In this document: in pieces, positions 56,545-64,000 of the stretch
Layout of the letters: each line of letters begins with the position of its first letter
Numbering within the stretch: the stretch's first letter is position 1
Origin: an uncultured Lutibacter sp.
GTDB lineage: Bacteria; Bacteroidota; Bacteroidia; Flavobacteriales; Flavobacteriaceae
Assembly: GCF_947493565.1 (NCBI RefSeq)
Contig: NZ_CANLRG010000003.1
Location: forward strand, 310,001 to 374,000
DNA: 64,000 nt
Direction of reading: 5' to 3'
Translations under genes and position numbers: made by a program
Notes under the pieces: generated by a model
The model's input: the letters and a program-made list of their open reading frames with translations, nothing else
The model's database searches: none
What the model was told of the DNA's origin: nothing

Positions 56545-57177
56545 TTATATATTCCATTTAATAGCTAGAGTAGGTCTCACATTAAATTCAAATTCGTAAG
56601 CAAAATTATTTGTTAACTCTATTTCACTTCCAATTGAAAAACTTTTATTTAAATGATACCATAATTGTGGCTCAGATAAAAATACCGTTTTTTCGGACAA
56701 TCCATTTTCAGACCATAGATCTGCAAATCCAGAAAATGTCAATTTATTTTCAATTAAATGAACATACCAAGTTCCTGTAATTTGAAAGTTTCCTTTATTT
56801 GCTCCAGTAAAAGCTTTATAACCTGCGTATGTTGAAAATCCCCATTTCGCATTTCCTTTTGAATAGTTAGCTCCAAAAATCCAAGCTTCATTATAACTAA
56901 ATTGATTGGAATTTCCGGCATTATATTCTACATGCAATCCCACTGGCATTTTTTCTGTTTTTAAAACACGAGCTATCTCATAATAGGCAGCACTTGTTCC
57001 AATAGCGGAATTATAATCAAAATCAATAAAGGTAAAAGTGTTACCATATTTATCCATTTTAAAGTATTCAAATGTGGTTGTAAAATGGCCTCTTTCAAAA
57101 TCTCTATGAAGTTGTAAGTTTTGTGCAGTAACAGCTGCTGTTACAAAAATTGTAATTAAAGTAATTAGTTTTCTCAT
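56545..57177 (-). CDS. DUF5020 family outer-membrane protein (Tsx-like)
   Basis: 210 residues. Signal peptide about residues 1-18 (ending TAQ). The rest is a small transmembrane beta-barrel with alternating strands: NLQLHRDFERGHFTTTFEYFKMDKYG region, TFTFIDFDYNS, PQLWYHLNKSFSIGSEIELTNN and the last strand FEFNVRPTLAIKWNI ending in a hydrophobic residue plus Ile. The DUF5020 family resembles the nucleoside channel Tsx. It heads the operon with the purine permease, so it is likely the outer-membrane entry channel for the same substrates. The family assignment is from pattern and context. Confidence 0.82.
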   Translation of the reverse strand: MRKLITLITIFVTAAVTAQNLQLHRDFERGHFTTTFEYFKMDKYGNTFTFIDFDYNSAIGTSAAYYEIARVLKTEKMPVGLHVEYNAGNSNQFSYNEAWIFGANYSKGNAKWGFSTYAGYKAFTGANKGNFQITGTWYVHLIENKLTFSGFADLWSENGLSEKTVFLSEPQLWYHLNKSFSIGSEIELTNNFAYEFEFNVRPTLAIKWNI

Positions 57178-57447: not shown

Positions 57448-57468
57448 ATCAAATAATTTGATTATCAA
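57448..57468 (+). promoter_or_regulatory. Nested palindromes upstream of the first hoxF
   Basis: ATCAAATAATTTGAT (57448-57462, 7-1-7) overlaps TTGATTATCAA (57458-57468, 5-1-5). The halves look like CRP/FNR half-sites (TTGAT/ATCAA) but the spacing is not the standard four bases. They lie about 50-68 bases before the start codon. Confidence 0.4.
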
Positions 57469-57515
57469 GTAATTAAGAAGTAAATTTAAGTAATAAAACT
57501 ACTAAACAATTACTT

Positions 57516-59240
57516 ATGAAACGGTCAAGGCTACTAACCCGCCTTTGGGAGTTTCAAAATAAATTTGGCTTTATATCTGACAATGCCATTTCTGAGATTG
57601 CTCAAAAATTAAGGGTTTCAAAAATTGAAATTGAAGGAGTTATTTCTTTTTACCACTTCTTCCACAGACAACCTACTGGAAAATACATTATTTATCTAAA
57701 TAATAGTATAATTTCTGAACACAAAGGCTTTGAATTAGTTAAAACTGCTTTTGAAAAAGAAACCGGATGTACTTTTGGAAAATACTGCGACAACACTTTA
57801 TTTTCTTTATTTGAAACTTCTTGTATTGGATTAAGTGACCAAGAGCCTGCAGCACTTATTAATTTTCATCCATTCACAAATTTAAATCCAGAAAAGGTAA
57901 AATCTATTGTACAAAAATTAAAAATTGGTGTTTCATTAGAAACACTACAAAACAACCCTACAAGTAAAATCCAATACATACCTCCTGGCAATAAAACAAT
58001 TTTTTTTAGAGACTATTTTTTAGGTAATTCAATAAAAAAAATACTTAAACACTCTCCCGAAGAACTATTAGGCACTTTATTTAAAACAAACCTTGAAGGT
58101 CACGGAGGCGCATTTTTTTCAACTGGTTTAAAATGGAAATATTGCAAAGAAAGCAATTCAACCAAAAAATATATTATTTGTAATGCAGATGAAGGAGAAC
58201 CAGGAACTTTCAAAGATAAATCTTTGCTTAATAACGTACCTGAATTGGTCATTGAAGGGATGATAATTGCTTCTTATATAACTGGAGCCTCCAAAGGAAT
58301 AATTTATTTACGTGCTGAATATACCTATTTATTCAAAAAAATTAAAAATGCAATACAGAAATTTAAAAATAAAGGTTATTTAGGGAATGAAATATTGGGA
58401 ATGAAAGATTTTAAGTTTAATATAAAGATACAATTAGGGGCAGGTGCCTATGTGTGTGGTGCTGAAACTGCTTTAATTGAATCTTTAGAAGGAAAACGAG
58501 GAGAACCTAGAATACGTAAATATTTTCCTACTGAATATGGTTATTTTGGAAACTCAACTGTTGTAAACAATGTTGAAACTTTTGCAAAAGCTGCCAGAAT
58601 TATTGAATTAGGAACCGACTTTTTCTCAAATATAGGAACTCAAAAAAGTAAAGGTACTAAACTAATTAGCATTTCTGGAGATGTTGCAAAACCAGGAATT
58701 TATGAAATTGAATGGGGAACTACCATAAAAGAACTACTTCATTTATCTCAAGCAACAGCTCCTTATTATCTTCAAATTAGCGGACCATCTGGAGAATGTA
58801 TCAATGAAATGGAATTCGATAGAAAAATTTGCAAAGAAGATTTAATTTGTGGCGGATCTATTATGGTATTTAATCGCTACAGAAGTATTTTACAAATCAT
58901 AGAAAATTTCATGAAATTTTTTAATGAAGAATCATGTGGTTCTTGCACACCTTGTAGAGCTGGAAACCAAATTTTGTATGAAAAAATTAAGAAAATTAAA
59001 AAAGGAATATGTACTTCAAAGGATTTGGAAGAAATTAAAGAATGGGGTAAAATTGTTTCATTAACAAGTAGATGTGGTTTGGGTCAAACCTCAACAAAAA
59101 CTTTTAGTATGGCTATAGATAAGTTTAAAGATTATTTCAACTTAAAAGTAAAAACTTGTACAGATAATTGCTCAATCGAATTTGACATGGAAGAAGCAGT
59201 TTATGATTATGACTCAATTATTAAAACTACTCAATTTTAA
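57516..59240 (+). CDS. hoxF: NAD-reducing hydrogenase diaphorase subunit HoxF, first copy
   Basis: 574 residues, matching HoxF of the soluble NAD-reducing hydrogenase of Ralstonia eutropha. A NuoE-like N-domain (about 1-150) has lost most of the four [2Fe-2S] cysteines. A NuoF-like part follows: the glycine-rich GHGGAFFSTGLKW at about 195, the FMN site CNADEGEPGTFKDK (222-235), and CGAETALIESLEGKRGEPR (314-332) with Glu317 at the place of NuoF Glu183. Near the end are an SLBB domain and the [4Fe-4S] ligands Cys474, Cys477, Cys480 and Cys520. It oxidises or reduces NAD(H) and passes electrons to HoxU. A second copy lies 297 bases on. Confidence 0.92.
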   Translation: MKRSRLLTRLWEFQNKFGFISDNAISEIAQKLRVSKIEIEGVISFYHFFHRQPTGKYIIYLNNSIISEHKGFELVKTAFEKETGCTFGKYCDNTLFSLFETSCIGLSDQEPAALINFHPFTNLNPEKVKSIVQKLKIGVSLETLQNNPTSKIQYIPPGNKTIFFRDYFLGNSIKKILKHSPEELLGTLFKTNLEGHGGAFFSTGLKWKYCKESNSTKKYIICNADEGEPGTFKDKSLLNNVPELVIEGMIIASYITGASKGIIYLRAEYTYLFKKIKNAIQKFKNKGYLGNEILGMKDFKFNIKIQLGAGAYVCGAETALIESLEGKRGEPRIRKYFPTEYGYFGNSTVVNNVETFAKAARIIELGTDFFSNIGTQKSKGTKLISISGDVAKPGIYEIEWGTTIKELLHLSQATAPYYLQISGPSGECINEMEFDRKICKEDLICGGSIMVFNRYRSILQIIENFMKFFNEESCGSCTPCRAGNQILYEKIKKIKKGICTSKDLEEIKEWGKIVSLTSRCGLGQTSTKTFSMAIDKFKDYFNLKVKTCTDNCSIEFDMEEAVYDYDSIIKTTQF

Positions 59241-59537
59241 TATTGAAATTTATTTTTATTATTAAACACCTAATTATTAAGCTATTATTTTACAATAAAT
59301 ATATTTTTTATGATATTTATCATACGTTTTTTACATTTATATTAAATTAATAATGTAATAAAAAATATCAAAAATTAGAATGTATAAAAAAAAATACTGA
59401 TTTTTTTATAAAAACCATACGTTGCTTCCGTAAAATACTTCAATATAAACAAATCGTTCTAAAACGTTTAAAATGGTGTTTTTCTTGCTATTCTTTATTC
59501 GTAACTTTAATTACAGCAAACATCAATATACTTTCTT
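59241..59537. other. 297-base gap between the two hoxF copies
   Basis: AT-rich, no reading frame. It contains a 16-base palindrome (59309-59324) and a near -7 element TAACTTTA at 59502-59509, so the second copy may have its own promoter. Confidence 0.7.
59309..59324 (+). promoter_or_regulatory. FNR/CRP-type palindrome TATGATATTTATCATA
   Basis: Perfect 16-base inverted repeat whose core TGAT-N4-ATCA matches the FNR family consensus TTGATnnnnATCAA except for the outer bases. It lies about 215 bases before the second hoxF start. Confidence 0.45.
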
Positions 59538-61265
59538 ATGGATAGAACACAGTTGTTAAATAAACTATGGGAATATCAACATGAATTTGGATATATTTCA
59601 AAAAATGCAATTTCCAAAATTTCTAAATCATTACAAGTTTCAAATATTGAAATTGAAAGTGTGATTTCATTTTATCATTTTTTCCATAAACAACCTACAG
59701 GAAAAAATATCATTTATTTAAACAATAATATCATCTCTGAAATAAAAGGTTTTGAAGACATTAAAACTACATTTGAAAAAGAAACCGGATGTAATTTTAA
59801 TGAACAAGGTAACGATGAATTTTCCTTATTTGAAACCTCTTGTATTGGTTTAAATGACCAAGAACCTGCCGCCCTAATTAATTTTTTACCTTTTACAGAC
59901 TTAACTCCTAAAAAAGTAAAGTTAATTATTCAAAAAATTAAAAATGGTGAAAATTTAAAAGATTTTGCTAGTAAAACTAAAAGCAAAATTCAATATACTC
60001 CCAAAGAGGATAAAACGGTATTGTTTAGACCATATGTAATGGGTAAAAGCATTAAAGAAGGTCTTAAATATAGTTCACAAGAAGTTATTGATAAAATAAC
60101 AAAATCTAAACTACTAGGATTGGGGGGTGCATTTTTCCCAGCTGGTTACAAGTGGCAATCGTGCAAAAACAATGTAGATGACATTAAATATATTATTTGT
60201 AATGCAGATGAAGGCGAACCTGGAACATTTAAAGACCGAGCTATCTTACAACATGTACCTGGTCTCTTGTATGAAGGTATGATTTTGGCTGGGTATGCAA
60301 CAGGTGCAAAAGAAGGAATCATCTATTTAAGAGCCGAATACCTTTACCTATTACCTGAATTAGAAAAACTTTTAGAAGAATTTTATTCAAAAAATCTATT
60401 AGGCAAAAACATACTAGGTGTTGAAGGATATGATTTTGACATACGCTATCAAATAGGTGCTGGCTCCTATGTTTGTGGTGCAGCATCTGCACTTATTGAA
60501 TCTATGGAAGGTAGAAGAGGTGAACCTCCAGTACGTATGTGGTCTGCAACAAAACACGGTTTTAAACATAAACCTACAGTAGTGAATAATGTTGAAACTT
60601 TGGCCTACGCTTCAAGAATTATTGAGTTAGGAGAAGATTTCTTTTTAAGTTTAGGAACAGAGGAATCTCCTGGAACTAAACTTATAAGTATTTCTGGTGA
60701 TGTGGCAAAACCCGGTATTTATGAAATTGAATATGGAACAAGTTTTAAAAAACTTTTAGGAATAGAAATGAGTCAAGCTACAGCTCCATATTTTCTTCAA
60801 GTTAGCGGACCTTCTGGCGACTGTATTAATAGTTCGGAGTTTGACAGAAAAATTTGCAAAGAAGATTTGTTATGTGGTGGAGCTCTTATGGTATTTAATC
60901 GCAACAGAGACATTCTTCAAATTTTTAGAAATTTTATGGAATTTTTCAAAGAAGAGTCTTGTGGCGTTTGTACACCTTGTAGAGCAGGAAATTTTATTTT
61001 AACAGAAAAAGTAAAAAAGATTCAGCGAGGTCTATGTTCTCAAGAAGATTTGGATGACATTAAACAATGGGGAAAAATCATCAAACTTTCTAGCAGATGT
61101 GGATTAGGAAAAACTTCTCCAAATTCATTAATGATGGCTATAGATAAATTTCCAGATTATTTCAATATAAAAATAGCCCCTTCAAATGAAGACCAACATG
61201 TTGAATTTGATATGGAAAATGCCATTCATGAATTTGATAGTATTATTAAAGACACTCAATTATAG
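59538..61265 (+). CDS. HoxF paralogue, second copy with altered nucleotide site
   Basis: 575 residues, aligned along its whole length with the first copy: NuoE-like N-domain, NuoF-like core with GLGGAFFPAGYKW, CNADEGEPGTFKDR (221-234), SLBB, and [4Fe-4S] ligands Cys475, Cys478, Cys481 and Cys521. It differs where NuoF binds the nucleotide. The first copy has CGAETAL; here it is CGAASAL, with Ala316 in place of NuoF Glu183. The following PRxxPPFP-like stretch is PPVRMWSATKHG. It could accept NADP(H), bind flavin only, or serve a different acceptor. It is 17 bases before the hoxUY fusion, so this copy is the one physically joined to the hydrogenase operon. Confidence 0.9.
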   Translation: MDRTQLLNKLWEYQHEFGYISKNAISKISKSLQVSNIEIESVISFYHFFHKQPTGKNIIYLNNNIISEIKGFEDIKTTFEKETGCNFNEQGNDEFSLFETSCIGLNDQEPAALINFLPFTDLTPKKVKLIIQKIKNGENLKDFASKTKSKIQYTPKEDKTVLFRPYVMGKSIKEGLKYSSQEVIDKITKSKLLGLGGAFFPAGYKWQSCKNNVDDIKYIICNADEGEPGTFKDRAILQHVPGLLYEGMILAGYATGAKEGIIYLRAEYLYLLPELEKLLEEFYSKNLLGKNILGVEGYDFDIRYQIGAGSYVCGAASALIESMEGRRGEPPVRMWSATKHGFKHKPTVVNNVETLAYASRIIELGEDFFLSLGTEESPGTKLISISGDVAKPGIYEIEYGTSFKKLLGIEMSQATAPYFLQVSGPSGDCINSSEFDRKICKEDLLCGGALMVFNRNRDILQIFRNFMEFFKEESCGVCTPCRAGNFILTEKVKKIQRGLCSQEDLDDIKQWGKIIKLSSRCGLGKTSPNSLMMAIDKFPDYFNIKIAPSNEDQHVEFDMENAIHEFDSIIKDTQL

Positions 61266-61282
61266 TTTTAAAATTGTTACTA

Positions 61283-62545
61283 ATGAAAAATATATCATTT
61301 AAAATAGATGGAAGAAATTGTACAGCTGAACAAGGACAAAACTTAATTGAAGCAGCTAAGCAAAATGGAATTTTTATTCCTACACTTTGTCACTTCAAAC
61401 ATTTAAATCCTTTAGGAAGCTGTAGAGTTTGTACAGTAAAAAATAATGGGAGAACTATTGCTGGATGTACTTTAAATGTTGATGAAGGGATGGATATTGA
61501 AGTAAATACTCCAGAACTATTAGATGCTCGAAAAGCCATTTTAGAAATGATGTTTGTAGAAGGAAATCACTTTTGTCCTTCATGTGAAAAAAGTGGTGAT
61601 TGTCAAATGCAAAACCTTGGCTACGAAACCGGAATTAGATACACTCGTTTCCCTCATCTTTTTGTAGATCGTATTGTAGACGCACGTCCAGAGAGAATTG
61701 TTGTAAACCAAAACAGATGTATCAAATGTAAACGTTGTATTGAAGAAGTTAGAACCACCGATGGAAATCGCGTATTTAATTTCACAAACAGAGGCAATAA
61801 AACACTCGTTTCAATAGATTACGAGCAAGAAGCTAAACTTTCTGACACTCAAGCCGAACATGCAATGCATATTTGTCCAACAGGGTCTATTTTAGTTAAA
61901 GGAAAATCGTTTGGAAAGCCTTTTGGAAATCGTGAATTTGATTATTCTAATAAAGAAAAAAATATTTCATTTAATGAAATTAAAAAACATAAAACCACTC
62001 ATAAGAAAAAAAGAATTGCTACCACCTCTTTAGCAGGTTGTTTTGGCTGCCATATGTCTATGCTCGATGTAGATCTAGGCATTTTAGATTTAATTGAAGT
62101 GGTAGAATTTAATAAATCTCCAATTACAGACATTAAAAATTTCACCGAACATTGCGACATTGGTTTAATTGAAGGCGGTTGTTGTAATACACATAATATT
62201 GAAGTCCTTAGAGAATTTCGTAAAAATTGTGACATTTTAGTTTCTGTGGGTGAATGTGCTATTTGGGGTGGATTACCTGCCATTAGAAATACTGTACCAT
62301 TAGAAGAATGTTTAAAAGAAGCCTATTTAAACTCTATGACCAGCGAAGAAAATGAAATCATTATCCCTAATCATGAGGATATTCCTAAAATTTTAAATAA
62401 AGTTTATTCTAACCATGAAGTAGTGAAAATTGATTATCATATTCCAGGCTGTCCACCAAATGCCAATCATATTTGGAACGTAGTAAAACATATTCTTTTT
62501 GAAGAAGAATACTCCATTGCATACCCTGAGTTTAAGTACGACTAA
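61283..62545 (+). CDS. HoxU-HoxY fusion: diaphorase iron-sulfur subunit joined to hydrogenase small subunit
   Basis: 420 residues from the ATG at 61283; a TTG three codons earlier is less likely. Residues 1-210 are HoxU: [2Fe-2S] ligands Cys36, 47, 50, 62; a His-Cys cluster His96, Cys98, 101, 107; and [4Fe-4S] Cys146, 149, 152, 198. After a Lys-rich linker (about 225-245) comes HoxY: [4Fe-4S] ligands Cys253, 256 (GCFGCHMS), 325 (VGECAIWGG) and 390 (IPGCPPN). Characterised HoxFUYH enzymes have these as separate proteins of about 234 and 209 residues. No stop, frameshift or repeat marks the join. It conducts electrons between the diaphorase and HoxH. Extra cysteines lie at 300-301. Confidence 0.92.
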   Translation: MKNISFKIDGRNCTAEQGQNLIEAAKQNGIFIPTLCHFKHLNPLGSCRVCTVKNNGRTIAGCTLNVDEGMDIEVNTPELLDARKAILEMMFVEGNHFCPSCEKSGDCQMQNLGYETGIRYTRFPHLFVDRIVDARPERIVVNQNRCIKCKRCIEEVRTTDGNRVFNFTNRGNKTLVSIDYEQEAKLSDTQAEHAMHICPTGSILVKGKSFGKPFGNREFDYSNKEKNISFNEIKKHKTTHKKKRIATTSLAGCFGCHMSMLDVDLGILDLIEVVEFNKSPITDIKNFTEHCDIGLIEGGCCNTHNIEVLREFRKNCDILVSVGECAIWGGLPAIRNTVPLEECLKEAYLNSMTSEENEIIIPNHEDIPKILNKVYSNHEVVKIDYHIPGCPPNANHIWNVVKHILFEEEYSIAYPEFKYD

Positions 62546-62562
62546 CTATTAAAACAACCAAA

Positions 62563-64000
62563 ATGAACAAAAAGAAAATAGTTATAGAACCTGTTACACG
62601 TGTGGAAGGACACGGAAAAGTAACCATTAAAATGAATGAAGAAGGCAAAGTTGAAGATGCTTTTTTACATATTGTTGAATTTAGAGGGTTTGAAAAATTT
62701 ATCCAAGGTCATCCTTATTGGGAAGCACCTGTTTTGGTTCAACGCTTGTGTGGTATTTGCCCTGTAAGCCACCATATTGCTGCTGCCAAAGCCATTGACC
62801 AATTAGTTGGTGTAGATCCTGAAAATTTAACACCTACAGCAACTAAACTTCGTAAGTTATTACATTACGGTCAAGTTTTTCAATCTCACTCTTTACACTT
62901 TTTCTATTTAGCCTCTCCAGATATATTATTTGGAATTGATGCTCCAGCAGAGAAAAGAAATATTGTTGCTGTAGCTACAGAAAACCAAGAACTTGCTAAA
63001 AAAGGCATCTTAATGCGCAAATTTGGGCAAGAAATTATTAAAGCATTGGCAGGGAAAAAAATACACGGAATTTTAGCAGTTCCAGGAGGTGTTCATAAAA
63101 CATTTACAAAAGAAGAACGCGAGTACTTTTTAGATGGAAAACAAATTCCAAATGTAGATACTATGATAGAATGGTCTAAAGAAATTATTGATTTTATGAA
63201 AGCTTATCATTTTGATAACGCACCATGGATTGATAATTTTGCTGCCTACCCATCTAACCATTTAGGTTTAGTACATAAAGAAACTGGAGCTATGGAATTA
63301 TATGACGGCCGTTTACGTTCAATAGATTCAGAAGGAAATGAGCTATTAAACATAGAAGACATAGAGTATCGTTATCATTTCAAAGAAGCTGTTGAACCAT
63401 GGTCATATCTAAAATTTCCATACATGACAAAATATGGAAGAGAAAATGGTTGGAATAGAGTTGGTCCATTAGCTCGTATAAACACTTGTTCTCATATTCC
63501 TACATATTATGCCGAAATTGAACGTCAAATTTTCAAGGCATATACACAAGACAAGCCTAATAATATGACCATGCATACACATTGGGCGCGTTTAATTGAA
63601 ATGTTACATTGTGCCGAACTAATAAAAGAACTCTTATTAGATGAAGATTTAATGGGTACAGATTTAGTAACAAAAGGAACTCCTAGAAATAAAGGAATAG
63701 GAATTATTGAAGCTCCAAGGGGAACTCTTATTCACGAATATCATACCGATGACAAAGGCTTAATTACTAAATGTAATTTAATAGTTTCAACTACACATAA
63801 TAATGAAGCAATGAATAGAGGTGTTAGAACTATTGCAAATGAAGTTTTAAATCATAAACCAGAAATTACAGAGCCTATGCTCAACCAAATTGAAATGGCT
63901 ATAAGAGCATACGACCCTTGTTTAAGCTGTGCAACTCACGCGCTAGGACAAATGCCTTTAATAGTACAATTAGAAGATCTTCAAGGAAATTTATTAGATG
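62563..64000 (+). CDS. hoxH: [NiFe]-hydrogenase large subunit HoxH, C-terminus outside window
   Basis: 479 residues read from the ATG at 62563 to the window edge; the frame is still open. Nickel ligands Cys63 and Cys66 are in RLCGICPVSHH and Cys453 and Cys456 in DPCLSCATH, so the active-site set is complete; only a short tail after the second motif is missing, which in such proteins includes the peptide removed by the HoxW protease. The N-terminus IVIEPVTRVEGHGKV and NAPWIDNFAAYPSNHLG-like segments fit group 3d (NAD-reducing, bidirectional) enzymes. It cleaves or makes H2 in the cytoplasm. It follows the hoxUY fusion by 17 bases. Confidence 0.93.
   Translation, partial: MNKKKIVIEPVTRVEGHGKVTIKMNEEGKVEDAFLHIVEFRGFEKFIQGHPYWEAPVLVQRLCGICPVSHHIAAAKAIDQLVGVDPENLTPTATKLRKLLHYGQVFQSHSLHFFYLASPDILFGIDAPAEKRNIVAVATENQELAKKGILMRKFGQEIIKALAGKKIHGILAVPGGVHKTFTKEEREYFLDGKQIPNVDTMIEWSKEIIDFMKAYHFDNAPWIDNFAAYPSNHLGLVHKETGAMELYDGRLRSIDSEGNELLNIEDIEYRYHFKEAVEPWSYLKFPYMTKYGRENGWNRVGPLARINTCSHIPTYYAEIERQIFKAYTQDKPNNMTMHTHWARLIEMLHCAELIKELLLDEDLMGTDLVTKGTPRNKGIGIIEAPRGTLIHEYHTDDKGLITKCNLIVSTTHNNEAMNRGVRTIANEVLNHKPEITEPMLNQIEMAIRAYDPCLSCATHALGQMPLIVQLEDLQGNLLD

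Follow-up and report, generated by a model that had tools for sequence, protein, structure and literature searches.

Why would a bacterium carry two complete HoxF subunits in front of a single hydrogenase core, and would both serve the same nucleotide? This question is raised by a 64,000-nucleotide stretch of DNA from an uncultured Lutibacter species (assembly GCF_947493565.1, contig NZ_CANLRG010000003.1, positions 310,001 to 374,000; referred to here as the window), in which two hoxF genes lie in tandem as intact open reading frames (ORFs), followed by a fused hoxUY gene and then by hoxH. Our data suggest that the locus encodes one core of a soluble [NiFe] hydrogenase resembling group 3d (HoxUY-HoxH), which two HoxF diaphorase subunits would serve as alternatives, an assignment that we consider probable from sequence comparison. 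With similar, moderate confidence we propose that HoxF1 is the nicotinamide adenine dinucleotide (NAD) module and HoxF2 a natural module for its phosphate, NADP(H), probably used as an alternative on one HoxUYH core. The four genes are as follows.

57516..59240, plus strand: hoxF1, 574 amino acids, Glu317 and Phe337-Pro338 retained; expected to be NAD-type.
59538..61265, plus strand: hoxF2, 575 amino acids, with Ala316, Ser336, Ala337 and Lys339; adenosine site remodelled, expected to be NADP(H)-type.
61283..62545, plus strand: hoxUY fusion, in a conserved 420-amino-acid form from the ATG at 61283; the ORF itself starts from the TTG at 61274.
62563..64000, plus strand: hoxH, the NiFe large subunit, which runs past the window to a stop at window-equivalent position 64014.

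The preliminary description of this DNA had named two full-length HoxF proteins before one HoxUY-HoxH set, both with the flavin mononucleotide (FMN) motif and the [4Fe-4S] cysteines, and our analysis agrees. We aligned 13 full-length HoxF2, 24 HoxF1 and 13 ordinary ('A-type') HoxF sequences (a partial HoxF2 from locus L044 was kept separate and agrees with the rest), and no row in any of the three groups lacks any of the four [4Fe-4S] cysteines. HoxF1 and HoxF2 are 62-63% identical, and a Pfam scan places 2Fe-2S_thioredx, Complex1_51K and NADH_4Fe-4S domains in both. The best match of HoxF1, HoxF2, the HoxF2 model and HoxH is the NAD-reducing group 3d enzyme HoxHYFU of Hydrogenophilus thermoluteolus (5xf9/5xfa), whose HoxF has the same domain plan as both HoxF of the window, and structure models of HoxF confirm the fold with 5xfa/5xf9 as the best Protein Data Bank (PDB) match. 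Among solved structures HoxH is nearest to a soluble hydrogenase (SH) large subunit, 5xf9_D (E 3e-154), followed by 7t2r_D (1.8e-134) and Mvh 5odc_F (2.3e-114). A HoxF with NuoE-like, 51K/FMN and 4Fe-4S domains and the presence of HoxU and HoxY, here in one chain, likewise fit group 3d soluble [NiFe] hydrogenases. Unlike the H. thermoluteolus enzyme, that of the window has HoxU and HoxY fused and a second HoxF gene with a remodelled adenosine site. The genome is 3.1 Mb in size, its closest named relatives at the hox locus are Lutibacter species, and it holds no other group-3-type HoxH in a PF00374 search and no other HoxUY at E <= 1e-40. The PF00374 search also found one other [NiFe] large subunit, of a different class, elsewhere in the genome (contig C9, 577-amino-acid frame). 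HoxU and HoxY are fused in all 41 ORFs with a HoxY motif in the Flavobacteriaceae loci compared here (61283-62545 and 40 more; 417-452 amino acids).

The case for two nucleotide specificities begins with a single residue. Replacement of E183 in Escherichia coli NuoF reportedly opens the site to NADPH, and NADPH engineering of complex I is said to have been the subject of work by Morina in 2011. Escherichia coli K-12 NuoF, translated from NC_000913.3, was aligned with HoxF1, HoxF2 and the other rows; E183 is the second Glu of CGEETAL (E182-E183-T184). This residue shares one alignment column with HoxF1 E317, HoxF2 A316 and E185 of Thermus Nqo1, and the codons were checked. The earlier claim that Ala316 is the equivalent of NuoF Glu183, which had been set as the check that could refute the idea, is thereby upheld. 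The codons concerned are as follows.

58455..58478, plus strand: codons of HoxF1 residues 314-321 (CGAETALI) around Glu317, whose own codon is 58464-58466.
60465..60554, plus strand: codons of HoxF2 residues 310-339, where 7 of the 11 HoxF2-specific columns lie; the Ala316 codon is 60483-60485.

Position 316 is Ala in all 13 full-length HoxF2 and in the partial L044, while Glu is found in 24/24 HoxF1 and 13/13 A-type HoxF. A further 28 Bacteroidota 51-kDa relatives, from the best matches in a 395-genome phylum sample, all have Glu in the E183 column and either Phe or Tyr at the F205 position. Passages of two papers state that in Thermus Nqo1 F70, F78 and F205 stack the adenine of NADH and E185 binds the ribose (PMC4694087; PMC11677225). 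The equivalents of F70, F78, F205 and E185 are F201, Y209, F337 and E317 in HoxF1, and F200, S208, S336 and A316 in HoxF2. In Thermus numbering HoxF2 thus carries Glu185 to Ala, Phe205 to Ser and Pro206 to Ala, with Lys in place of HoxF1 Glu340 in addition, and the Ser that replaces the adenine-stacking Phe is preceded by Trp or His. The preliminary description had placed a change of the PPFP loop in HoxF2; the change is there (MWSA, with Phe and Pro both lost), but the loop of HoxF1 is altered too (KYFP) and differs in that the stacking Phe and the Pro are retained. HoxF2 keeps its FMN, nicotinamide-side and [4Fe-4S] residues.

Side by side with this, HoxF1 of the tandem species no longer has the first of the two Glu residues either (Nqo1 E184; HoxF1 residue 316, 58461-58463); the column holds Ala in 13/24 HoxF1 rows and 13/13 HoxF2 rows. 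In complex I, a passage of PMC7171172 has the E184 equivalent hydrogen-bonded to K202.

We found that the changes peculiar to HoxF2 are clustered. Eleven of 263 eligible columns are both invariant in and peculiar to HoxF2 (41, 310, 316, 326, 331, 336, 337, 339, 468, 496 and 566; at columns 41, 310 and 566 one of the 24 HoxF1 rows has the HoxF2 residue), and seven of them fall within 310-339, where the NAD site holds the adenosine. When 11 of the 263 columns were drawn at random, none of 20,000 trials put seven or more into any 30-residue stretch. Under the strictest rule, by which the residue must be absent from both other groups, HoxF2 has 8 columns with 6 in 310-345, HoxF1 has 3 with 1 there, and A-type HoxF has 11 with 2 there; a slightly wider rule gives 12 HoxF2 columns, one of them a gap. 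Over residues 307-347 the median net charge is +3 in HoxF2 and -1 in both HoxF1 and A-type HoxF, while over the rest of the protein HoxF2 is the more acidic (medians of -10, +6 and -2 for HoxF2, HoxF1 and A-type HoxF, respectively).

These same data bear on the idea that HoxF2 is not linked to NAD(P) at all, having lost the adenosine site so that its FMN hands electrons on to a different acceptor (a protein or a small oxidant) or the subunit is a structural stand-in. The replacement of all three equivalents of Glu185, Phe205 and Pro206 would fit this. An abandoned pocket is less likely because the new residues are invariant: A316, S336, A337, K339 and K345 are identical in 13/13 full-length rows, as would be expected under selection, F199-F200, K205 and E227 are likewise invariant, and no second cluster of HoxF2-specific columns occurs among the 263. 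We regard this explanation as unlikely.

Is there a known enzyme whose pocket is altered in the same way? Over this stretch we compared the PDB chains 5xf9, 7p5h, 8a6t, 7t2r, 9n5u, 7q4w/7q4v, 2fug and the Aquifex entries 6q9c/6q9k/7q5y/6hl2, and the only one without both the Glu and the Phe/Tyr is HydB of Thermoanaerobacter kivui (8a6t; CGESTAL and RPPRTNECG), which has Ser at the E185 position and Arg at the F205 position. Like HydB, HoxF2 has its E185 and F205 (and P206) equivalents replaced, by Ala/Ser/Ala where HydB has Ser/Arg/Thr, and HoxF1 keeps both E185 and F205. This likeness was noticed after the HoxF2 columns had been set and was not used in defining them. A passage of PMC8578170 gives the T. 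kivui enzyme an activity of 20.8 U/mg with NADP+ (with ferredoxin) and of <0.01 U/mg with NAD+. Unlike the enzyme of the window, that of T. kivui is a bifurcating [FeFe] enzyme, HydABC, whose HydB is longer (630 amino acids). The earlier suggestion of an NAD/NADP split therefore gains support from the right residue, from the clustered changes at the adenosine subsite and from an enzyme altered at the same positions.

A second comparison is with Cupriavidus necator SH, where we take E341 of HoxF, by its motif, to be the same Glu as HoxF1 Glu317. The engineered HoxF E341A/S342R accepts NADP+, with specificity relaxed and not reversed, according to the part of PMC10127272 concerned. Like this variant, HoxF2 has Ala in place of the Glu; unlike the laboratory double mutant, HoxF2 occurs in nature, carries Ser at the equivalent of residue 342 and has its PPFP loop altered instead.

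Several points weigh against NADP(H) specificity of HoxF2. T. kivui HydB stands alone as a precedent, and its loop is not the same in detail, with Arg where HoxF2 has Ser and Glu, not Lys, at 339; nor does HoxF2 have the Arg that S342R introduced into the engineered C. necator enzyme. Without the Glu and the Phe, the site might just as well bind every dinucleotide more weakly; the Phe78 position does not discriminate, being Y, S, A or I among the HoxF1 rows; and the HoxF2 structure prediction is poor over the loop, with block means of 58-59 for residues 311-330. A Glu at the E183 position, if the following enzymes carry it, may not exclude NADP use: Synechocystis HoxEFU is described as acting on NAD(P)H, and a passage of PMC12809855 reports that wild-type Hydrogenophaga pseudoflava SH reduces NADP+ with a kcat of 2.1 per s, versus 137 per s for NAD+. 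The latter is a natural enzyme with some NADP+ activity and a strong NAD+ preference. Finally, PNTB transhydrogenase occurs in 38/38 genomes of the genus and does not separate HoxF2 carriers from the others, so a hydrogenase that makes NADPH is not obviously needed.

Under the preferred reading of an NAD-type HoxF1 and an NADP(H)-type HoxF2, HoxH would split H2 and the clusters of HoxUY would relay electrons to the [4Fe-4S] cluster and the FMN of the HoxF docked at the time, where FMN would reduce the bound dinucleotide. These steps follow from the known family; the admission of NADP+ by HoxF2 is our own proposal. HoxF1, with an NAD-type adenosine pocket retained, would couple H2 to NAD(H). 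In HoxF2, where ribose-binding Glu has become Ala, stacking Phe has become Ser and a nearby acidic residue has become Lys, the stretch is about four charges more positive, and loss of the Glu together with a Ser/Lys/Arg-rich loop would admit the 2'-phosphate of NADP+ and so couple H2 to NADP(H). HoxF1 and HoxF2 might compete for, or alternate on, HoxUYH, perhaps from separate promoters. We infer NADP use, docking on one HoxU, alternation and the promoters alike.

We asked how the pair is distributed. HoxF2, HoxF1 and A-type HoxF each fall on one side of a branch (support 100/100, 100/98 and 100/100), and HoxF1 and HoxF2 form separate clades on the same side against A-type. HoxF of the HoxF1/HoxF2 group occur in 28 of the 38 genomes of the window's genus: nine carry both, always in tandem, and 19 carry only a HoxF1-type gene (16 full-length, all with the Glu, and 3 fragments); in a further genome (G430) the sole find is a 51K of another type, with 40% identity. 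HoxF2 is 78-83% identical in 8 Lutibacter loci. Outside Lutibacter, HoxF2 occurs in two named Winogradskyella species, one Winogradskyella metagenome-assembled genome (MAG), one Seonamhaeicola MAG and one Flavobacteriaceae MAG. The search of Flavobacteriaceae for co-occurring pairs that had been proposed at the outset thus yielded nine tandem genomes in the genus and five loci outside it, with a Glu-type HoxF beside HoxF2 in 13/14 loci and one HoxH common to both in 11/14. One core for both HoxF had also been proposed, and all nine tandem genomes have a single HoxUY and a single group-3-type HoxH.

An arrangement of two flavoproteins on one core would suit electron bifurcation between two HoxF subunits of one complex, which the preliminary description had offered as an option. 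The Pfam scan found no C-terminal ferredoxin domain in either HoxF, and one of the four N-terminal [2Fe-2S] ligands is present, these being, we assume, the cysteines of NuoE. By these results neither HoxF has the features expected of the bifurcating HydABC/NfnABC/Stn family, a ferredoxin domain of HydB type at the C-terminus and a [2Fe-2S] cluster at the N-terminus, and loci with only HoxF1 or only HoxF2 occur. Bifurcation is highly improbable.

Both copies appear to be maintained. Median dN/dS (ratio of nonsynonymous to synonymous substitution; Nei-Gojobori, 36 species pairs) is 0.16 for HoxF1, 0.10 for HoxF2, 0.08 for HoxUY and 0.05 for HoxH, values that are rough since silent sites are near saturation (median proportion of synonymous differences ~0.6). 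HoxF1 evolves faster than HoxF2 in 33/36 pairs. HoxF2 is under purifying selection. Decay of the second copy in relatives, named earlier as a possible refutation, was rejected: HoxF2 has no stops, its motifs are intact and its dN/dS lies below that of HoxF1. Relaxed or dual NAD(P) use by HoxF2, with no separate physiological role and with the pair serving as redundancy or dosage, would agree with the C. necator variant, where the double change at this Glu relaxed specificity with no reversal, in the passage concerned (PMC10127272). The retention of both copies in 9/9 tandem genomes, the slower evolution of HoxF2 and the clustered changes in addition to the Glu all speak against it, and we give this explanation a low probability.

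In the two named Winogradskyella species, W. vincentii and W. alexanderae, an A-type HoxF-HoxUY set comes first and a HoxF2-HoxUY set second, with only one HoxH after them (L041:6657-14930 and L045:6671-14930). Given two HoxF-HoxUY sets and one HoxH, HoxUY too may be exchangeable. The A-type set in these species has no large subunit of its own. The Seonamhaeicola and Flavobacteriaceae MAGs have two HoxH each. In the Winogradskyella MAG PL24a, which as a MAG could be incomplete, HoxF2-UY-H is present and the searches, at their cut-offs, gave no further HoxF or HoxUY. Its contig is unbroken into hoxF2 from a gene that we take to be hypF-like; in W. vincentii the A-type HoxF-HoxUY separates the two. 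PL24a can be read as evidence, from gene content, for HoxF2 serving as the sole HoxF.

PL24a also bears on a role for HoxF2 in NADPH-dependent reductive reactivation of the oxidised core after O2, with HoxF1 as the catalytic subunit. HoxI2 of C. necator promotes reductive activation by NADPH, according to a passage of PMC10127272. As the only HoxF found in PL24a, HoxF2 should work there as a catalytic diaphorase, and we consider a reactivation role quite improbable.

Flavobacteriaceae with an A-type HoxF-HoxUY-HoxH (e.g., L050) share with the window the operon plan, the fused HoxUY and GGAFF; unlike the window, they have only one HoxF, in which the motif reads CGEETAL and the loop has Phe-Pro. 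GGAFF had been taken to mark one lineage-specific duplication, an argument that fails: it is carried by 13/13 A-type HoxF and is found further afield, in two (L105 and L106) of five full-length HoxF from more distant Bacteroidota, the other three having GGAFY. In the HoxF and HoxUY trees Winogradskyella and Seonamhaeicola are nested inside Lutibacter, with several relevant HoxUY forks below 95; in the HoxH tree Seonamhaeicola is outside Lutibacter (91/87) and Winogradskyella inside. A single clade of Lutibacter HoxF2 was compatible with the approximately unbiased test (p 0.177). It appears likely that HoxF2-UY-H has been transferred between Lutibacter and Winogradskyella/Seonamhaeicola, because the set adjoins a resident A-type operon. 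A fuller account can be offered only tentatively: one core with two exchangeable HoxF of opposite nucleotide specificity, which would have arisen through a duplication within the Lutibacter lineage and would recur in Winogradskyella, where an NAD-type HoxF-HoxUY of another lineage shares one HoxH.

If the proposed specificities are true, HoxF2 would be an H2:NADP+ module found in nature, sharing an operon with its matched NAD-type control, would permit a direct test of specificity determinants across the NuoF/HoxF/HydB family and would be a starting enzyme for H2-driven NADPH recycling, and the cell could route H2 into catabolic or biosynthetic reductant by choice of HoxF. No title or abstract start describes a tandem HoxF pair among the open-licence matches listed for HoxF duplication and NADP, Lutibacter hydrogenase and Flavobacteriaceae group 3d.

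Could the two genes be expressed separately? Promoter calls used the Bacteroidota promoter consensus, and the candidate elements are as follows.

57458..57488, plus strand: possible Bacteroidota-type hoxF1 promoter, TTG, 20 nucleotides and TAAATTTA; a putative promoter role.
59241..59537, plus strand: hoxF1-hoxF2 spacer, 297 nucleotides (277-308 nucleotides across 9 tandem loci).
59502..59509, plus strand: possible -7 box of a separate hoxF2 promoter, TAACTTTA; a weaker candidate than that of hoxF1.

TTG-N20-TAnnTTTA precedes hoxF1 in 9/9 tandem loci, 26-37 nucleotides ahead of the start. Before hoxF2, TAAnTTTA is found in 9/9 at 29-37 nucleotides, with a TTG 17-23 nucleotides away in only 1/9; the box is also found in L044 and is absent from that place in L040, L041, L042 and L045. 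As putative promoters, the upstream boxes are good candidates for hoxF1 and weak ones for hoxF2. A sigma-70 scan gave 37 promoter-like matches against 28.8 expected by shuffling (standard deviation 6.0), and terminator-like matches numbered 1 against 1.9 expected, counts that tell little about control of the two genes.

Around the locus, the gene after hoxH (L046:8998-9441) is, judging from its motif, presumably maturation-protease-like. A divergent DUF5020 gene (56545-57177) lies upstream of hoxF1, and in L033 and L035 ORFs that are similar by eye occupy the corresponding position. Elsewhere the same genome has an RnfC gene (G000:C10, L047) and a formate dehydrogenase alpha gene adjoining its own 51K gene, in which the Glu is kept (G000:C5, L048).

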